Source: Acidimicrobiales bacterium
GTDB lineage: Bacteria; Actinomycetota; Acidimicrobiia; Acidimicrobiales; JAHWLA01
Direction: 5' to 3'
NCBI GenBank assembly: GCA_035536915.1
Contig: DATLNE010000014.1
Span: 1 to 64,000, forward strand
DNA length: 64,000 bases
Under the pieces are notes generated by a model, which saw nothing but the letters and a program-made list of their open reading frames with translations, did no database searches and was not told where the DNA came from. Shown here one piece after another: positions 47,210 through 56,264 of this stretch; within the stretch, counting starts at the first letter, position 1; every line of letters begins with the position of its first letter. The position numbers and the translations under genes are program-made.

Positions 47210-47227
47210 GTGTACAGGGCTTTGCAG
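47210..47227. other. Left attachment core (attL-like)
   Basis: GTGTACAGGGCTTTGCAG is identical to 56216-56233 within tRNA-Cys, covering the anticodon-loop/variable-loop side. Similarity continues beyond the core (TGCCT at 47233-47237). The surrounding sequence is not a full tRNA, so this is the displaced copy. Confidence 0.7.
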
Positions 47228-47279
47228 ACCGCTGCCTGACCTTGGGAACTCCCTGGCCAGAGGCAGTTTATCGGTGTGG

Positions 47280-47298
47280 TGGGGAGCGCTTGGGGAGC
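47280..47298. repeat. Arm-type direct repeat, left copy
   Basis: TGGGGAGCGCTTGGGGAGC is identical to 56062-56080 and contains GGGGAGC twice. Placement inside both ends of the island suits integrase arm-binding sites. Confidence 0.6.
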
Positions 47299-47381
47299 AA
47301 GATCGAGGCTCGTGGCGGGCGATCGCGGTGAGCAGCGGTCAATGTGGGCGCGCCGGCCGCCACCGAGCAGTACGTCGGTCG

Positions 47382-47613
47382 TCAGCTGCTCGCGCCGCGG
47401 GACATCCGGACCCACTGCTTGACGGCCTCGGTGTTGCGCCAGTGGGGGTAGTCCTTGGGTCGGAGCAACCCTGCACCTTCTCGGATCGCTGACTCGAGCT
47501 CCAGCCGCTCAAGCCTCTCCCGCGCCGCTTCCTCCAAGAACCGGCCTCGCCCGCGCTGGCCAACCATGGGCGTCCACTTGCTTGACCAACTCGTCATTGA
47601 AAGTCACTCGCAT
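47382..47613 (-). pseudogene. Frameshifted ribbon-helix-helix antitoxin
   Basis: The start MRVTFNDELVKQVDA is in one frame and VGQRGRGRFLEEAARERLER in the next. Together they give the usual RHH antitoxin layout. One extra base in the GGG run at 47568-47570 (plus strand) explains the break. AIREGAGLL and NTEAVKQWVRM form the toxin-binding tail. No toxin gene follows downstream; the island end lies there. It could be a sequencing indel. Confidence 0.55.
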
Positions 47614-47755
47614 CTGCGACATCTGCGTCTGGGCTCGCTCGGCGTGGTCCCGACTATGCCCACTCGGTCAGCGCAGCGCGGCCTAAAAAAGCAAAACCAG
47701 GCCAGCAGCTGAGGCTACTGGCCCGCACCATTGTTGGCCCCCGACGACAGCCCAC

Positions 47756-47824
47756 ACGAGCCTGTCAAGGGGCGCCCGGCGGCTCGTGTCCGGCCTCGGC
47801 TCCGCCGCCCCTTGACCGGCTCGT
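47756..47824. repeat. Imperfect 19-bp inverted repeat, 31-bp loop
   Basis: Bases 47756-47774 pair with 47806-47824 with one mismatch (ACGAGCCTGTCAAGGGGCG against its near-complement). It could form a large stem-loop. Its role is unknown: terminator, recombination site or remnant of a mobile element end. Confidence 0.5.
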
Positions 47825-48158
47825 ACGTGCCAGCGAGGGCTGACAGTCCCACCCACGCGAGGGACGACAGACATCAAACGGAACCCGACGACGACCACGA
47901 TGACGAGGCCGGAACCAGATATTCAGCAGGAGGTCGACTGAGTACTTACGTCACTTGACAGCAAGGCCGATAAAGGCTGCACACACTTTGCACAGCAAGC
48001 TGTGGCCACCCATGTCGCCGCCCGCCACGGGCTGCTGTCAGGTCGCAGCGGTCGTTACGACGACGGCGTGGCAGGCGCACCTCTCCCGAGCCCACTGCGC
48101 GTCAGTCTGCGTGAGGAAGTCGATCACGATCTCTCGTCCGCGATCGCGCCGACCGCGG

Positions 48159-48178
48159 CGTTCGTATGGGTGCGCTCC
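48159..48178 (+). repeat. 20-bp direct repeat, copy A
   Basis: CGTTCGTATGGGTGCGCTCC matches 50271-50290 at 18 of 20 positions in the same orientation. The two copies bracket the TIR/YfbU segment. Confidence 0.45.
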
Positions 48179-48438
48179 ATGCCACCGTGATGAACCTCGG
48201 CACCGCGGGACGACCAGAGCGTTCGCTGGACGCGTCCCGAGCCCGTCAACCGCTGCAGACGCGATAGGTGCTGCCTTCCTGCTCAGCTTGCCGCGTGTAG
48301 TCGAGGCGTCATTCGGAACGGGTTGGGCGACGGTGCGTCAGGTGACCGATCTCGCCGGTGCATTCCTCCTCCGGCCCCGAGGCACGACTAGCCAAACGGA
48401 GACGAGCTTGGGACCGCGATGAGAGGCACCCGTCCCCG

Positions 48439-49161
48439 TCAGTCGCCGCTCTCAGCAGCCGCCGCCGCGGCGACCTTCTTGGCGGCGTCCTGCATCGACA
48501 AACCGTCGCCAATGGTCAGGCCCGACCGCGCTGCGAGCAGCGGACTCACCGCTCGGAGGGCATCGAACGTCGTGCCGTGGGCGACAGGAATCACCCGGTC
48601 AGTGAAGAGCAACGCAGAGAGTTCCTGGTCGGCGACTCCCTGGGCCTCCAAGCTCTTGAGCAGCGCCGGGGTCACGAGCACGATCCCGATGCGGGACATC
48701 GCCAGGCCTCTATCGATCTCGCGCAGGAGCGACTTGCCGAGTCCGACCTCGGTCTCGCTGAACCAGACCGTCGCACCGCTCGCGACCAGCTCGTCGTAAA
48801 GATCCTTCGCTGCTCCCTGCCGGTCATCCCAGGCGTGGCAGAGGAAGAGGTCGCGACGGTCGGGGTAGGTCCGCGCCTGCACCTCGGCAACACGGACGAC
48901 CGGCTCGAACGTACGCCACTCCGTGGGCGAGTACGACACGGTCCCGCCGCCGCGCAGGCGACGCGTGCCACCACCGCCGCCGCCCGACGGGACACCGCTC
49001 GACGACCCGCCGCCGTACGACCCTCTGCCTCCCGTCGGGTATCGCGAGGGAGGGCTGTAGGAGGAGTATAAGGACGATCGGTAACGGCTCCCGCACGCAG
49101 GACAGTTCGCGGCGGCGGCCGCAGATCGGTGCCCTCGAACGGGTGCCGTGCATCGCGCCAT
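48439..49161 (-). CDS. TIR-domain protein, probable defence effector
   Basis: A 240-residue protein. The N-terminus has a CPAC motif (Cys20, Cys23), then a Gly/Ser-rich linker (about 43-74) and a TIR domain at about 102-215: DLFLCHAWDDRQGAAKDLYD, ATVWFSETEVGLGKSL, IDRGLAMSRIGIVLVTPALL, VADQELSALL (Glu180 in the position of the catalytic Glu). Bacterial TIR domains degrade or cyclise NAD+ in anti-phage defence. ATG 49161 is preferred over an upstream TTG. It lies within the island, on the opposite strand to the ATPase-protease pair. Confidence 0.8.
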   Translation of the reverse strand: MARCTAPVRGHRSAAAAANCPACGSRYRSSLYSSYSPPSRYPTGGRGSYGGGSSSGVPSGGGGGGTRRLRGGGTVSYSPTEWRTFEPVVRVAEVQARTYPDRRDLFLCHAWDDRQGAAKDLYDELVASGATVWFSETEVGLGKSLLREIDRGLAMSRIGIVLVTPALLKSLEAQGVADQELSALLFTDRVIPVAHGTTFDALRAVSPLLAARSGLTIGDGLSMQDAAKKVAAAAAAESGD

Positions 49162-49297
49162 GCTCCGAGGATACAAGCGATGGCCACGATCTCATGGAAC
49201 GATCGCAGATCGCGAAACGTGGCGCGAACGTGTGATCGTCAGACCCAAAAGCATCGGCGGCGACCGCGGGCTCTACCCCCGGACGCCCCGGACGTCG

Positions 49298-49878
49298 TCA
49301 GCCCCGACTCTCTGCGATCCGACCCAGTTCGTCGGCGTTCAGATGGCGCATGCTGGCGGCGCGCATCTTCTCCCGCCAGATGGGGTCGTAGACGTCGAGC
49401 ATGGCCTGATACCTGCTGAGCATCAGCGAGTGGCTATTGCCCCCGTCCGCCGCCTTCACGTCGTCGACCAGGTCCCTCCAGCGGCCCGTCGCTTGCAGGT
49501 AATCGACGTAGCTGGCCATCTTGCCCTCCCGCGCATCGTTACCGTCGAAGCCCTGGAAGAACAGGACGTACTTGTGATCGGCCAGCAACGCGGCCCGCTC
49601 GGTCTCATCCAATTCGGCGATGCTCGCCTTCATCACTCGGAACATGTCGAGGATGTCGTAGACGAGGCGGCAGTCGTCATGCGGCAGCTCGGAGTAGGGC
49701 GAGAACACCTTCCCGTACTCGGCCGTGTAGCCCTGCGTGAGGACCTCCTGCATCGCCGGTGATAGTCGGTCTCGCTCTCGTCGAGGTGCGACAGGATCTG
49801 GTGCTGGAGCGCGAGCGTCTGCCGCTCGAAACGGGATAGCGAAGTCGGCGCGCTCAGGTCGTCGTAGTCCGTGCTCAT
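49298..49878 (-). pseudogene. YfbU-like gene with a frameshift
   Basis: From ATG 49878 one frame reads SLSRFERQTLALQHQILSHL. The next frame continues LSPAMQEVLTQGYTAEYGKV, FVMK-type helices, LFFQGFDGNDAREGKMASYV and YQAMLDVYDPIWREKMR. Together these match the YfbU family, a helical family of unknown function. The break lies near 49780-49800, and 581 bp of length implies one missing base. It may be a real pseudogene or an assembly error. It is upstream of the TIR gene on the same strand, 136 bp away. Confidence 0.6.
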
Positions 49879-50270
49879 CGCCTGCCTGTCCGGTGGCTGC
49901 TTGTGTTGTCGGGCGTCGAGATCTTACCGAGGCGCTTTCATTACCTTGTTCGAACGCTGTTCCCCTCCGCACTGAGGTTTCGGTGGCGAGTGCGCACGTT
50001 ACTGAGTCAACACCGGTCATCTGCGCACCGATGGGCGCCACTTCGGACACGTCTCGCACCAGCCGCCGCGGCCTATCCGGCGTTGCGAATGGAAGTCGCA
50101 GTGGTGCACTACGGCCAGCTCGGCCCTAACGAGGGACACGCGCTCGATCGTCGTCAGCCGAAAACAACCGAACGCCGTAGACCCCCAGTCGTGAGGCTCA
50201 TCACGCACGCGCACGAGAGTCGATGTCGACGACAGTTTCGATCGTCAGCGAGCCGCTGCGCGCCGCTCGT

Positions 50271-50290
50271 CGTTCGTATGGCTACGCTCC
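50271..50290 (+). repeat. 20-bp direct repeat, copy B
   Basis: CGTTCGTATGGCTACGCTCC matches 48159-48178 at 18 of 20 bases. The preceding 40 bp are also loosely similar (translated RRSYGYAP against RRSYGCAP). Confidence 0.45.
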
Positions 50291-50780
50291 CCTTGCCGAT
50301 GGCGCGCAGCAGATGGGAACGGATCGCCCGTTCGGGGCCGTGTTCCACTCGTTTCCAGCCCATTGGCTGGCTCGCCGGCCCCTGCTGTGTCCGACAGCGC
50401 CCCAACGCCCCCCAGACGGCCGTGAGCGTGTTGCAGTCGGGCGTACCCGTGCGTCCGTCGTAGACAAGCCGCAGCGCAGGGCGTCGAAGATGCACCGCAG
50501 CACCGCGTCCGGCTCGTCCCGTCAGGTCGTCCAGCCGGGCGATGGGGTCGTCCAGCACCACCGGCTCGTCGTCGTCCCGCGCCCCAACTGGTCGAGAAGT
50601 GCGCCGAGCATGGCCAGCTTCTTCTCGCGCTCGGCGGTCGGCTCCGACAGCCGCTCGGGCATGGCCCGGAATGATGCTGCCGTCCTGGTCGTCACGATCC
50701 TCGAGCTGGTGGACGAGCCGGAAGCCCCACATGATCGCCAGCGTCGGCGAAGAACATGCGTACGCTGAGGGCGTGCGAGG
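50290..50780 (-). pseudogene. Decayed gene remnant in several frames
   Basis: Coding-like segments appear in different frames: LAIMWGFRLVHQLEDRDDQD, then PERLSEPTAEREKKLAMLGA, then DDDEPVVLDDPIARLDDLTG and DAVLRCIFDALR. The pattern is that of one gene with several frameshifts. The family is not identified; a C-terminal part of a recombinase is only a guess. Confidence 0.35.
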
Positions 50781-50785
50781 CGACG

Positions 50786-51778
50786 ATGGCACGGAGTGAC
50801 TTGGTCAAGGCGCTGATGCGGAGCCATCAGCAAGGCGACGATCGCGCCTTCCACTCCGCCGCCGAGGCACTCATCGAGGACGAGCGACGGAAACGGCATG
50901 ATCTCCTCGCTAACGAATTGACGGCGATTCTCCAAGAACCGACGTCAGGCAAGCGGCCGCTGCACGTTTCCTCACTCAAGCCGTTGCCGAAGACCCGAGA
51001 CGACCTCCCCTTGTTGTCGATCTCGCAGCCGTCAGTCACGTTCCAGGATCTCGTGCTCCCGGCCGACGTGAGCTCCGTCTTGGAGTCCGTGGTCGACGAG
51101 TTTCGCCAACGGTCGATGCTGCGAGCGCACGGGGTTCGCCCTCGCTCAACGCTCCTCTTTGTCGGGCCGCCGGGATGCGGAAAATCTGTCAGCGGCGCCG
51201 CGATCGCCGGTGAACTCGGGCTGGCTATCGCCCGAATCCAGCTCGCCACCGTCGTATCGTCGTACCTCGGAGAGACGGCGCGGAACCTCGAACAGATCTT
51301 CACCTTTCTCAACAGCGGTTCGTGGGTGCTTCAGTTCGACGAGTTCGACATGCTCGGCCGCGAGCGATCAGACCGGTCGGACCACGGTGAACTTCGACGC
51401 GTCGTTGCTGCAATGTTGCAGATCATCGATGAAAACAATGCCGACTCTGTGTTTGTTGCCACTTCGAATCATCCGGGACTGCTCGATTCGGCCGTCTGGC
51501 GTCGCTTCGATGAGGTTGTGGAATTCCCGCTTCCAGACGAAGCAGCGCGCGCCGCACTAATTCGGCTAAAACTCCGAGGAGTGCGAGCAGACTTGAAGCC
51601 TACTGAAGAGGCCCGTCGAATGGAGGGGCTCAGCGCAGCCGACATCGAAAGCGTCTGTCTGAACGCTATTAGGCTGATGGTTCGCCGCTTCGACAAGGCG
51701 GTAACCGCCGAGCACATCGCGTACGGAATGGAACGGGAAGAGGCACGGAGACGAGCGATCAACAGCTCCCTGGGATGA
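50786..51778 (+). CDS. ietA: AAA+ ATPase, IetA-like
   Basis: A 330-residue AAA+ ATPase with a helical N-terminal part (1-75). Walker A is GPPGCGKS (127-134), Walker B VLQFDEFD (Asp185, Glu186), sensor 1 VFVATSNHP (Asn228) and an arginine finger AVWRRFD. The C-terminal lid has GLSAADIESVCLNAIR. The stop overlaps the subtilase start by ATGA. This ATPase plus S8-protease pairing is the IetAS arrangement, known as a plasmid stability module and later as an anti-phage candidate. GAGG precedes ATG 50786. Confidence 0.82.
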   Translation: MARSDLVKALMRSHQQGDDRAFHSAAEALIEDERRKRHDLLANELTAILQEPTSGKRPLHVSSLKPLPKTRDDLPLLSISQPSVTFQDLVLPADVSSVLESVVDEFRQRSMLRAHGVRPRSTLLFVGPPGCGKSVSGAAIAGELGLAIARIQLATVVSSYLGETARNLEQIFTFLNSGSWVLQFDEFDMLGRERSDRSDHGELRRVVAAMLQIIDENNADSVFVATSNHPGLLDSAVWRRFDEVVEFPLPDEAARAALIRLKLRGVRADLKPTEEARRMEGLSAADIESVCLNAIRLMVRRFDKAVTAEHIAYGMEREEARRRAINSSLG

Positions 51779-54249
51779 GCGATGGAGCCCAGGGGGGGCT
51801 CCATCTACTTCGGCTGAGGCGGACGCTTGAACCAGGCGGGCGTCGGCCGGGCCGCGGGTTCGGAGGCGGACGCCGCCATGAGGATCTCCCTCGCCACGGT
51901 GGTGAGCTTCAGCAACGTGCCCGGACTATCACCATGGGCCATCTCGCCCGGACCGCCGTTCTTGGCATCGACCCCCGTCTCGTGCTCGTGTTTGAACTCG
52001 GCGCGCCAGTCGAACCGGAGGACTTCCGACGGGCGGGACTACGCGTGCTCGACGCCTCGCACCGCCGTGTCGTCATCGCCTTCGCCGACGACCCGGAGCT
52101 CGCAGCGTTCAATGAGCGCCTGGACGCACTGCAGGGCGGGGCACCGGAGGGCCAGAAGTCGGAGCCGTACGCGGCGTTCTTCGACGCTATCGACAGCCTG
52201 CGGACTCTGGGACCGGATGACCGCGTCACGGAGCGGTTGGCGCAGGTCCTCGCATCCGGCTCAGCCGACGGGATGCTACGGCTGGACGTCGAGTGCTGGC
52301 ACCCCGACGACCGCGACCTCGCCGCGGATTGGCTCGCAGCGCTCTCCGATGCCGTTGATCAAGCCGGCGGGCGCGTGGCGGACCGCTACGTCCATGATGC
52401 AGCAGGGCTTCTGCTCGCACGCGTGTATGCGCCGGCCAAACGGGTACACGAGCTCGCCGAGCTTGACTTCGTAGCACGAATCGACGTACTTCCGACCCCC
52501 GCGCTCACCGTGCCGCAGCTTTTGGGAACGGACGATGCGCGACTCCCTCCGGTTGAGCCGCCCGCGGACGGGGCACCGATCGTCGGGGTGATCGACTCAG
52601 GCGTCCGTTCGGCTCACCCCCTCCTGGCTGGCGCGGTCGTGACCGCGGACGCACTCGGCACGGGCATCGCCGACGGCCAGGACGAACACGGGCACGGGAC
52701 GATGATCGCCGCACTGATTCTTCACGGTCGCGTGGACAGCGCCATCGCCCGCGGGCTGCCCCTTCGGCCGCTCGCGCAGATCGTCTCAGCTCGCGTGCTC
52801 AACTCCGAAAACCAATTCCCGGAGGAAGACCTGTGGGAACGGGACCTCGCGGACGCAGTTGAATGGTGTGTCGATCAGGGCGCTTCGGTAATCAACATCT
52901 CGCTCGGCGACAATCGGGCCGTCCTTTCCGAGGCACGTCAGATGAGCGCCGCCGCCGTCATCGACGCCCTGGCGCGTCGGCACGGGGTCACGATCGTGAT
53001 CTGCACCGGCAACATCGGACCGCTCGACTACATGGACGTGAGCGACGAAGGTGCCGCTGTTGCGTATCCCGCGCCGCTTCTGGACGCCGCCCACGCCCGG
53101 CTCATTGATCCCGCTCCCGCCATGCTCGCTCTCACCGTAGGCGGGATGACCCAGGCGGCCGCCGCGACCGGACTGAGCGGGCGCGAGACGGTCGTCCGAG
53201 TTCCCATGGGACGCCCGGGCTGGCCGTCCCCGTTCACGCGAGTGGGCCCGGGCGTTGGCGGCGCGGTAAAGCCTGAACTGGTCGAGCTGGCAGGAACGCT
53301 GGGGATCGAGTCCGGCCGGCTTGTGGACAATGACGCCGAGTTGAGTGTGATCAGCGCGGGAGCCGCCGTAGACCGGCTCCTTGCTTTCGATGTCGGTACG
53401 AGTTTCGCGGCGCCTCTCGCCACCCGCGTCGCCACGGCTGTCAAGGCCAGATTTCCGGACTTCTCGGCTAATCTGGTTCGCGCCCTGGTGTTGTCATCGG
53501 CTGAGCCACCTGCATTCGGGCAGGAATTGGAAGCCGAGCGCCCGTCAGACCGCGCCGAGGCGGTTCGTCGCCTCTTCGGATACGGGCGACCATCCATCGC
53601 GCGAGCTACTGAGTCGACCACCCACCGTGTCGTCCTCGTAGCCGAGGATCAGATCCCGATCGACGGAATCCACATCTACGAGATTCCTGTTCCCGAAGCG
53701 TTCTTCGCCGCGGGTGGGCAGAGAGGGCTGGACGTTGCGCTTGCATATAGCCCCCGGACGCGCGCGCACAGGCTCGATTACATGGCGAGCCGCATGGAGT
53801 TCCACCTGGTCCGTGGGATGCCTCTCGACGACGTCGCCCGAATATTCGCCCAGTTGGAGGACGAGGCAGATGACGGCGAGAATGCCGATACTGATGTCCA
53901 AGGCGAAGCAGGTGGGCAGGAGCTTGATGCCGAACCGGCTCAGCCCACGTCGCTCCGACAACTCGGCTCCCGCTACTGCGGGATGTCACCGTCGACCACT
54001 GTTCGGTCGCGCGGGGCCAACCAGCTCGGTCGAGTCGTGTTCAGCCAACGCCTGGACCGGGACCGCCACACCCCCATGCACCTTGTTGTTCGGAACCTGA
54101 ACCGGTGGGACGACTCCACGGCGACACAGCCCTACGCCCTGGCGCTGGCGCTTTGGCGGACCGAGTCGCACGGCGAACTCTACGCCGAGCTTGAGGCACG
54201 ACTTGAAACGGTCGTAGAGGTGCCCGTCGAAATCGAGCTTCGGCCTTGA
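51775..54249 (+). CDS. ietS: Subtilisin-like (S8) serine protease, IetS-like
   Basis: An 824-residue protease. Residues 1-260 are a regulatory N-domain without a signal peptide, so it acts in the cytosol. The S8 domain has Asp274 (VGVIDSGVRSAHPLL), His307 (DEHGHGTMIAAL), the oxyanion Asn413 (ICTGNIG) and Ser543 (DVGTSFAAP), all intact. The remainder to the C-terminus is a mixed region that may contact the ATPase or target. The start overlaps the ATPase gene by four bases. The protease is probably held in check by the ATPase and released on infection or loss of the element (inference). Confidence 0.85.
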   Translation: MSDGAQGGLHLLRLRRTLEPGGRRPGRGFGGGRRHEDLPRHGGELQQRARTITMGHLARTAVLGIDPRLVLVFELGAPVEPEDFRRAGLRVLDASHRRVVIAFADDPELAAFNERLDALQGGAPEGQKSEPYAAFFDAIDSLRTLGPDDRVTERLAQVLASGSADGMLRLDVECWHPDDRDLAADWLAALSDAVDQAGGRVADRYVHDAAGLLLARVYAPAKRVHELAELDFVARIDVLPTPALTVPQLLGTDDARLPPVEPPADGAPIVGVIDSGVRSAHPLLAGAVVTADALGTGIADGQDEHGHGTMIAALILHGRVDSAIARGLPLRPLAQIVSARVLNSENQFPEEDLWERDLADAVEWCVDQGASVINISLGDNRAVLSEARQMSAAAVIDALARRHGVTIVICTGNIGPLDYMDVSDEGAAVAYPAPLLDAAHARLIDPAPAMLALTVGGMTQAAAATGLSGRETVVRVPMGRPGWPSPFTRVGPGVGGAVKPELVELAGTLGIESGRLVDNDAELSVISAGAAVDRLLAFDVGTSFAAPLATRVATAVKARFPDFSANLVRALVLSSAEPPAFGQELEAERPSDRAEAVRRLFGYGRPSIARATESTTHRVVLVAEDQIPIDGIHIYEIPVPEAFFAAGGQRGLDVALAYSPRTRAHRLDYMASRMEFHLVRGMPLDDVARIFAQLEDEADDGENADTDVQGEAGGQELDAEPAQPTSLRQLGSRYCGMSPSTTVRSRGANQLGRVVFSQRLDRDRHTPMHLVVRNLNRWDDSTATQPYALALALWRTESHGELYAELEARLETVVEVPVEIELRP

Positions 54250-54633
54250 CGCCAACGCTGGCGGACAACCTCACGGATGCGCCTCTGGGAGCGCCGCGGC
54301 CGCTACCGCTGGCCCACCGCTCGCAGTCGTCCGAGTCGTTACGGTGCCGAGGTCTCTACGTGACCCTTGCCGGACGCTTGCGGCCGTGACCGAATCGGTG
54401 AGCGGCGGGCATCGAAGCCCACGGCGGTCGCTCTCACGGCCGCCGGGGTTTGCTGGCAACGAATGACCGCGGCGAGTTCCCATCAGTGTTCATCCCGCCG
54501 AGGGTTCGGACCCGTGCAGGCGCGAGAAAGCAGGCGAGAGAGCGGGCTCTTCATGCGCTTCATGTTTGCGTCTGAAGTCGGTCAGCGAAGGACGCAAGGG
54601 TTGTAGTCGGCACAGCGGCTGGGAACGCTCTGC
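54250..54633. other. Intergenic region downstream of the subtilase
   Basis: I see no gene in these 384 bp between the convergent subtilase and excisionase. Short ORFs are Arg/Ser-rich shadows. Confidence 0.5.
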
Positions 54634-54828
54634 CTAGCTCGCGCGGCTGCGGTTCCGGTCGAGCCAGGCGGCGATGTCGTCGGGGTCGAAGCGGATGAGG
54701 TGGCCCCACTTGATGAAGGGGATGCGGCGCTCGGCGATGAGGCGTCGGATGTGGCGCTCCTTGACGCCGAGGTGGGCGGCGAGCCCCGGCACGTCGAATA
54801 GCCGGGGCAGCGCCGCCTTGTCGATCAT
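54634..54828 (-). CDS. Excisionase/MerR-like helix-turn-helix protein
   Basis: A 64-residue protein of the excisionase type: LFDVPGLAAHLGVKERHIRR as the helix-turn-helix and RRIPFIKWGHLIRFDPDDIA as the wing, ending AWLDRNRS. It would direct integrase towards excision. It follows the integrase gene on the same strand by about 100 bp. I prefer ATG 54828; a GTG at 54906 would add 26 residues. Confidence 0.8.
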   Translation of the reverse strand: MIDKAALPRLFDVPGLAAHLGVKERHIRRLIAERRIPFIKWGHLIRFDPDDIAAWLDRNRSRAS

Positions 54829-54932
54829 CGGGACTCGGTCAGGCGACGGGCGGTTCTGGTCGTTGATGGCAGTCACGGGCAGCAACGTGCGCCGAGGGAC
54901 TGACACGACCCCTGACCGCTCGCCTGACAGCC

Positions 54933-56045
54933 CTACGCCACCTCGCTGACACCGCCGCCTCGGCGGGCCGTGTCAGTTGCGTTGAACGCCTTGTCGAACG
55001 CCGACGCGATCGCCTCGTCGAGTTCCGGGAACAGGTCGCCGTAGCGGTCGAGCGTGACCGTGATCGACGCATGGCCCATCCGCACCTGGATCGTCTTGGC
55101 GTGGGCACCCGCTCGGATGGCCAGCGCCACGCTCGTGTGGCGCAGGTCGTGGAATCGGCACTTCACGCGGGCGGCGGCCAGCGCGGGCTTGAAGTAGTGC
55201 GTGTGGAAGCTCGACGCGATCAGCGGGTTGCCCGCCTGGTTCACGAACACCAAGCCGTCCGCGCCCGGCGCCGAGAACCGGTCCATGTGCTCGGCCAACA
55301 TCCGCGCCGTGAACGGGGAGATGGCGATGGTCCGCACGCCCGCCTCCGACTTGGGTGGGTGCCAGACCCACTCACCGTTGTCCAGGCGGATCAACTGCTC
55401 GACCACCTCGACCTTGCACGCCTTTCAGGTCCACCCGTGACCGGCGCAGTCCCACCAGCTCGCTCCAGCGCATGCCGCTGTCGACGGCCAGGAAGATCAG
55501 CGCGCGATAACGGTCCGGCAGGCCGTCGGCCAGGTCGAACACCTGCGGCCAGTCGAGGATCGCCATGCGCCGCCTTGGGACGCTCGGCGGCTGGACGCCG
55601 GCGCACGGGTTCGACGCCAACCGCTTGTGCTTGACCGCAACCTCCAGCACGCGGTGCAGCGTCCGGTAGTGGCGGTGCACCGACGACGGCGCCAGGCCGC
55701 TGTCGATCTCGTCCAGCAGCCACTCCTCGATCTCCTCGGCCCGCAGGCGACCGAGGCGGTACGTCCCGAACTTCGGCAACACGTACCGGCCGAGGTCACG
55801 GCGATACGTCTGCTGCGTGGTGTCGGCCAACCGCCGCGCCAGCGACATGAAGCGCTCGCACCACTCCCCCAGCGTCATGTCGGCCGCACGGGGATCGATC
55901 CACGAGCCCCGCTCCAGCGCCACCTCTTCCTCGCGCACCCAGCGCTCGGCGTCGGCCTTCAGGGTGAACGACTTCGACCGCAATCGGCCGCTCGCGTCGC
56001 GGTACCGGCCCCGGTACTTGCCGTGGTGCTCTCGATGAACCCCAT
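54933..56045 (-). pseudogene. Tyrosine integrase with frameshifts
   Basis: The gene encodes a tyrosine recombinase: an arm-binding N-terminus (GRYRDASGRLRSKSF), core-binding helices, then the catalytic Arg (DSGMRWSELVGL), Lys (PKSEAGVRTIAI), HDLRHT, GHASI and Tyr (TVTLDRYGDLFP). It is broken twice: an extra base in the TTT run at 55423-55425, and a likely missing base near 56025 just after the start (MGFIE, then HHGKYRGRYRD). GGAGG precedes ATG 56045. It sits beside tRNA-Cys, as integrases do. Functional loss or assembly indels are both possible. Confidence 0.75.
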
Positions 56046-56061
56046 CTCCAACCTCCGGTCT

Positions 56062-56080
56062 TGGGGAGCGCTTGGGGAGC
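56062..56080. repeat. Arm-type direct repeat, right copy
   Basis: Identical to 47280-47298. It lies just upstream of the integrase start and 135 bp from the tRNA-Cys core, as expected for an integrase arm site. Confidence 0.6.
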
Positions 56081-56129
56081 GCTCGGCCTGAAAACCAGGG
56101 GGTTCGGGGGGTCGACGGCGGTCACTCCC

Positions 56130-56148
56130 GGTCTGTCACGGACAGACC
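56130..56148. terminator. 8-bp hairpin downstream of tRNA-Cys
   Basis: GGTCTGTC and GACAGACC flank an ACG loop. It lies 42 bp past the 3' end of the tRNA-Cys gene on its strand and could end that transcript; the T-run is weak. Confidence 0.4.
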
Positions 56149-56189
56149 GAAAACCGCCCCTGACCTGCCATTATGCACGCAGATCAGGT

Positions 56190-56264
56190 TGGAGGCGGCG
56201 ACCGGAATCGAACCGGTGTACAGGGCTTTGCAGGCCCTTGCCTAAGCCACTCGGCCACGCCGCC
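56190..56264 (-). tRNA. tRNA-Cys (GCA), CCA encoded; island target
   Basis: The 5' end is GGCGGCG at 56264, paired with CGCCGCC before TCCA at 56193-56190. The anticodon stem AGGGC/GCCCT encloses CTGCAAA with anticodon GCA. The discriminator is U, as usual for Cys. The T arm reads CCGGTTCGATTCCGG. The gene is intact although an island is integrated in it. Confidence 0.93.
56216..56233. other. Right attachment core (attR-like) inside tRNA-Cys
   Basis: The 18 bases are identical to 47210-47227 and overlap the anticodon loop and variable region of tRNA-Cys. Integration here keeps the tRNA intact. Confidence 0.7.

Follow-up and report, generated by a model that had tools for sequence, protein, structure and literature searches.

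How does the translation of a toxin-like subtilase begin when its reading frame opens inside the gene of the ATPase expected to restrain it? The question is raised by the window analyzed here, a stretch of 64,000 nucleotides from an Acidimicrobiales bacterium (GenBank assembly GCA_035536915.1, contig DATLNE010000014.1, positions 1 to 64,000), in which an AAA+ ATPase gene, ietA, is followed by a subtilase gene, ietS, that overlaps it by the tetranucleotide ATGA. The reading preferred here, to which a probability of roughly 0.6 is given as a whole, is that the two genes form an IetAS defense pair, carried as cargo by a decaying element at tRNA-Cys, and that IetS is weakly started at an ACG codon inside ietA.

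Identity of the ATPase-Protease Pair

Both genes lie exactly where the earlier note had placed them (Table 1), the overlap falling at positions 51775-51778, and its proposal of an IetAS-like module was borne out by an HMM search, in which the PADLOC IetA and IetS profiles matched far above chance: PDLC02196 covers residues 6-319 of the 330 of IetA, and PDLC02198 covers residues 33-706 of the 824 of IetS. Both genes fall in these profiles and not in unrelated families; nor are they carried as separate housekeeping genes, the pair being adjacent in relatives and patchily distributed. The ATPase comes first and the protease next, on the same strand, in the window and in the relatives that have both genes on the contig. 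The ietA start at 50786 is backed by the N-terminus MARSDLVKAL, which is conserved among relatives.

Regarding the active sites, the Walker motifs announced for the ATPase were found as GPPGCGKS at residue 127 (A) and FDEFD at residues 184-188 (B), accompanied by sensor 1 (ATSN) and the WRRF arginine pair; across 38 of 38 homologues, no variation was seen in the Walker A glycines and lysine, in Asp185-Glu186, in Asn228, or in the RR pair. In IetS, the residues Asp274, His307, Asn413, and Ser543 all occur at the positions that had been assigned to them, and none of them varies in the 44 homologues compared. The N-terminus of IetS, as read from the sequence, is arginine-rich and has no hydrophobic stretch, and the protein looks cytosolic. 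Ten further S8 matches occur elsewhere in the genome.

As for the predicted structures, the AlphaFold model of IetA (pLDDT 84.8) includes an N-terminal helical region, and its core resembles the 26S proteasomal ATPases, PAN, p97, and FtsH. The aromatic residue of pore-loop 1, at position 160, is Tyr in 33, Phe in 2, and Leu in 3 of 38 sequences, and is followed by an invariant LG; on the strength of this YLG pore loop and of the p97/PAN/FtsH-like core, IetA looks like a threading or remodeling ATPase, and the pore loop suggests that its substrate may be IetS itself or a signal protein. The model of IetS (pLDDT 82.4) has a subtilisin core at approximately residues 256-622, with an α/β-unit N-domain before it and a C-terminal β domain after it; the alignments of KP-43 and SubHal to this model reach residue 793. 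Solved structures of IetS and IetA were sought by sequence, and the matches listed were generic subtilisins and p97-type ATPases. The predicted IetA core, with its aromatic pore loop, resembles the ATPase domains of FtsH and other AAA+ proteases, from which the window pair differs in that its protease is the product of a separate subtilase gene, not a fused metalloprotease.

Finally, the NCBIfam IteA/IteS equivalogs NF042959 and NF042956, which describe a narrower group than IetAS, gave scores far below their cut-offs, 205.8 bits where 510 are required and 102.1 bits where 900 are required, respectively. The window pair is of the same wider family as IteA/IteS and is not an equivalog of the modeled pair; because both proteins score below these cut-offs, we can only infer its anti-phage activity. 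As a member of IetAS it is intact and ordinary, and what was not expected lies at the gene junction.

Table 1. Coordinates of the gene pair, its junction, and the surrounding element in the window
Feature	Position	Strand	Description
ietA	50786..51778	+	AAA+ ATPase, 330 aa, antitoxin-like; PADLOC IetA 5.6e-77, Pfam AAA 3.5e-27
ietS read from ATG 51775	51775..54249	+	S8 subtilase, 824 aa, toxin-like; PADLOC IetS 1.2e-109, Pfam Peptidase_S8 1.8e-31
Shine-Dalgarno-like AAGAG inside ietA	51738..51742	+	8 nt before ACG 51751; GGGAG or AGGAG in most relatives
Candidate ancestral ACG start of ietS	51751..51753	+	SD-like box and ACG in all clade members; second in-frame ACG at 51745
ietS if read from the ancestral ACG	51751..54249	+	832 aa, T/M-S-D-Q-Q-L-P-G-M...; IetS-frame constraint from 21-24 nt before the ietA stop
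CTCCCTGGG	51766..51774	+	Leu-Pro-Gly in the IetS frame
Probable attL	47210..47237	.	25/28 match to tRNA-Cys, 18 exact
TIR-domain protein, ThsB1-like	48439..49176	-	PADLOC ThsB1|ThsB 8.6e-85, Pfam TIR_2
YfbU-domain gene, frame-broken	49298..50059	-	Pfam YfbU 2.6e-27, the match beginning only at profile position 32; N-terminal part lies in a different frame
Excisionase-like HTH_17 protein	54634..54906	-	Pfam HTH_17 1.4e-9, PHROG excisionase
Tyrosine integrase, frameshifted into two overlapping frames	54933..55983	-	Pfam Phage_integrase and Phage_int_M on halves; PHROG integrase on both; three-frame translation
tRNA-Cys, likely attachment gene	56190..56264	-	
Probable attR	56216..56243	.	inside tRNA-Cys

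The ietA-ietS Junction

The junction was compared in a clade of 14 sequences, namely 12 close members of the same order as the window, L042 (Chloroflexota), and L043 (another actinobacterium), with a bootstrap support of 100 in the tree. The ATGA overlap described in the earlier note is exact in the window, but it is not the conserved feature of the junction and is common to one close relative only, L034: the other 12 of the 14 clade members have no junction ATG, and when 15 related systems are counted (Acidimicrobiia and two outliers), 13 are without the ATGA start and have no usual start at this place. In half of the clade (7/14), the IetS frame is free of ATG, GTG, and TTG over a stretch that begins at its nearest 5' stop and extends to +104 or beyond, counted from the ietA stop. 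The window and L034 form a three-member subclade with L120, and because L120 and the outer members are without ATGA, the window has probably acquired its overlap later, beside an older start; when a single genome shows an ATGA overlap, this is not necessarily what is conserved in the gene pair. Within the clade the IetS frame is always -1 to that of IetA; outside it, IetS nearly always has a start codon of its own, no more than about 25 nt from the ietA stop, and its frame can be any of the three. An assembly error at the junction was ruled out, the same -1 frame being found in distinct genomes of several genera.

Codon statistics, computed on 12 sequences, indicated that the stretch without a start is translated. 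For IetS residues 2-53, pN/pS was 0.51 in the IetS frame, and the remaining frames gave 1.24 and 1.52; between the intervals -90 to -39 and -21 to 0, it rose from 0.53 to 1.20 in the IetA frame and fell from 1.25 to 0.52 in the IetS frame, with protein-level constraint in the latter starting 21-24 nt 5' of the ietA stop. Directly 5' of this stop there is a conserved, almost invariant NTCCCNGGN, which reads Leu/Phe/Ile-Pro-Gly in the IetS frame. Among the 327 codon columns of IetA, a single one varies at the second base while its third base is invariant, and this column lies in NTCCCNGGN.

These data bear on ordinary translational coupling, with a restart at the overlapping ATG in the window and at another site in the relatives, such as Met54 (+155 to +161). 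Coupling would suit the ATGA of the window and L034, as well as the ATG found at +155 to +161 in 10 of the 12 close relatives, which in two cases follows an acceptable Shine-Dalgarno (SD) sequence; it is nevertheless unlikely, since residues 2-53 and the codons before the ietA stop are constrained in the IetS frame, and therefore translated, and since the ATGA appears derived on the tree. The constraint on residues 2-53 also led to the rejection of residue 54 as the sole IetS start, and a CTG start in the LLRL segment was discarded because it is absent in L026.

The Met at IetS residue 54 (51934 in the window) is conserved in 10 of the 12 close relatives and not in the wider family; it may act as a second internal start, and is where gene-calling programs would be inclined to place the beginning of IetS.

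A Candidate ACG Start inside ietA

ACG is the sole near-start codon common to all 14 clade members. It is located at -28 in most of them, at -25 in the window and L120, at -46 in L042, and at -64 in L043, and it stands 5 nt behind an AGGAG, GGGAG, GGAGG, or AAGAG box, except in the window, L120, and L042, where the spacing is 7-8 nt. In all members, the product read from this codon starts with (M)-S/A/P/G-... and arrives at LPG or PG after a few residues; in L043, the box-ACG-LPG block is intact as a unit though the ietA stop is approximately 36-45 nt further downstream.

When the IetA tails were recoded with their own synonymous codons, the SD-ACG element was expected in 2.48 sequences and observed in 14 of 14, with a nominal P of 6e-13 that ignores relatedness and is too favorable because the sequences are related. 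At the outgroup junctions, the element occurred in 4 of 50 when any frame was allowed, and in 1 of 50 in the IetS frame. A fifteenth member, L029 of genome G005, was held out and did not enter the discovery of the motif: its IetS, otherwise frame-broken, has a stop at -46 and then an ACG at -28, 5 nt behind GGAG; this ACG is the only near-start codon between the -46 stop and -1, and an ATA overlaps the ietA stop.

Some points speak against the ACG: with the exception of L029, the motif was found and tested on the same sequences; the conserved Glu-x-Arg-Arg of IetA accounts for part of the SD-ACG pattern; and the window has a weak box, AAGAG, along with an ordinary ATG. In addition, the clade sequences share ancestry and come mostly from metagenome assemblies. 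A further such point is that ACG is a poor start codon in E. coli, where one reporter set had it among the codons working at 0.1-1.5% of ATG (PMC6925171). With these points considered, the most probable start of IetS in this clade is the ACG inside ietA, used weakly.

If this is true, a whole clade of bacterial toxins starts at a conserved ACG inside the antitoxin gene, an arrangement for which no bacterial precedent was found in the literature searched; the same literature, to which the 2009 pTiC58 paper did not belong, gave nothing on ACG starts or frameshifting in IetAS. Such a start would be a simple means of holding a protease toxin far below its keeper, and would mean that automatic gene calling sets the beginning of IetS either too far downstream, at residue 54, or at a wrong codon.

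Possible Frameshifting at the End of ietA

IetS could instead be made by programmed -1 frameshifting of ribosomes that approach the end of ietA, producing an IetA-IetS fusion with the order of FtsH (ATPase and then protease in one chain). This would agree with an IetS frame that is always -1, with the lack of a usual start codon in most members, and with a constraint that moves from the IetA to the IetS frame ahead of the ietA stop. Shifting could be stimulated by the SD-like box, which lies about 10-14 nt 5' of the switch region, and NTCCCNGGN is almost invariant. However, between -46 and 0 there is no conserved slippery motif of the Z_ZZN or X_XXZ_ZZN type measured in PMC4066793, and G_GGN, read against those motifs, is present in only about half of the junction sequences. 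Downstream, hairpins are strong in some members (z of -4.5 in the window and -4.9 in L034) and missing in others, with no consensus RNA structure among them. A frameshift also leaves unexplained the ACG that follows the box, at a distance suited to initiation, in each of the members, and none of the loci examined has a natural one-frame IetA-IetS fusion. Frameshifting is thus judged distinctly unlikely, and initiation at the internal ACG is preferred. Also unlikely is its extension to a defense machine, in which a non-standard -1 recoding would join antitoxin ATPase and toxin protease in one chain and place a few protease-bearing subunits in an otherwise ATPase-only ring, in the manner of FtsH. 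Frameshifting at CTCCCNGG, which was the first reading, was set behind internal initiation because the constraint begins upstream of CTCCCNGG.

The Probable Carrier Element and Its Neighbors

A 28-nt segment of tRNA-Cys recurs at 47210-47237, so that ietAS is probably the cargo of an integrative element at tRNA-Cys, of about 9.0 kb (47210-56243) and lying between the tRNA-Cys repeats. The element carries the TIR, YfbU, IetAS, excisionase, and broken integrase genes, with the integrase and the excisionase-like gene sitting between ietS and tRNA-Cys; one apparent frameshift, due to decay or to assembly error, affects each of the integrase and yfbU, and none affects ietAS. An exact 19-nt repeat, TGGGGAGCGCTTGGGGAGC, is located at 47280-47298 and 56062-56080, near both ends of the element, and possibly corresponds to integrase arm sites.

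As for the ThsB1-like TIR gene, a Thoeris ThsA partner of the SIR2_2 type was searched for in the whole genome, and no PF13289 match was found; with respect to this type of ThsA, it is an orphan TIR beside IetAS.

An IetS homologue was present in 5 of the 59 genomes searched, including that of the window, and several relatives adjoin type I restriction, TIR, or Schlafen genes; those beside L035 and L087 we take to be restriction genes from their sequence alone. No further clade members were found in viral contigs, phages, or plasmids.

The location of the pair inside an integrated element also fits a maintenance module of a mobile element, devoid of any anti-phage role. This agrees with the first description of the family, which dealt with plasmid stability and incompatibility (Yamamoto 2009, as cited in an excerpt of PMC8562856), and with sgiAT, to which an excerpt of PMC5006074 attributes the maintenance of a genomic island. 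The patchy distribution fits defense instead, as does the repeated proximity to restriction-modification, TIR, and Schlafen genes, and the integrase of the element is already broken, whereas ietAS is intact; maintenance as the sole role is therefore possible but doubtful, and a defense pair is preferred.

Proposed Mechanism

In the mechanism proposed for this defense pair, free IetS, as a cytosolic subtilase, would be harmful to the cell, and IetA, an AAA+ ATPase with a pore loop, of the same class as p97, the proteasomal ATPases, and FtsH, would restrain it. Infection, or another insult, would upset the balance between IetA and IetS, and the latter would then digest cell proteins, halting phage growth. 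In the clade, the stoichiometry would be set by translation, through a weak ACG in the -1 frame, placed inside the end of ietA behind an SD-like box and, in most members, 8-9 codons before the ietA stop; given so weak a start, the ATPase would outnumber the protease. We infer the use of the ACG, the stoichiometry, the trigger, the target, and the mode of inhibition, and the toxicity of IetS and its neutralization by IetA are assumed from the literature on homologues.

Known Systems and Other Copies

The IetAS of Agrobacterium pTiC58 and of rhizobial plasmids has the same arrangement, an AAA+ antitoxin gene directly followed by a subtilase toxin gene, and these plasmid and rhizobial homologues share approximately 30-34% (IetS) and 33-42% (IetA) identity with the window proteins, over almost the full length. 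Unlike the clade, the rhizobial homologues sampled have their own ATG, GTG, or TTG a few nt after the ietA stop, and their frames vary.

Toxin and antitoxin roles, with toxicity and neutralization, were demonstrated for the SGI1 pair S025/S026, according to an excerpt of the study (PMC5006074). This system, SgiAT (S026/S025) of Salmonella Genomic Island 1, has the same gene order and roles as proposed here; it differs in belonging to an IncA/C-mobilized island, and the excerpt reports no unusual start (PMC5006074). Toxin and antitoxin roles were shown for the mycoplasma pair T133/A132 as well; this TA132/133 system of Mycoplasma mycoides differs in its distant host, and no ACG start is reported in the corresponding excerpt (PMC8562856).

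A second and divergent IetAS pair (36% identity for IetA and 27% for IetS) is located at 1924-5480 of L030, in genome G009, which also has a close relative of the window pair. Finally, genome G005 has a decayed copy (L029 8592-10365, and L028), in which IetA reads through and IetS is interrupted by a frameshift and by a TAG within the gene, with the pieces on contig ends.
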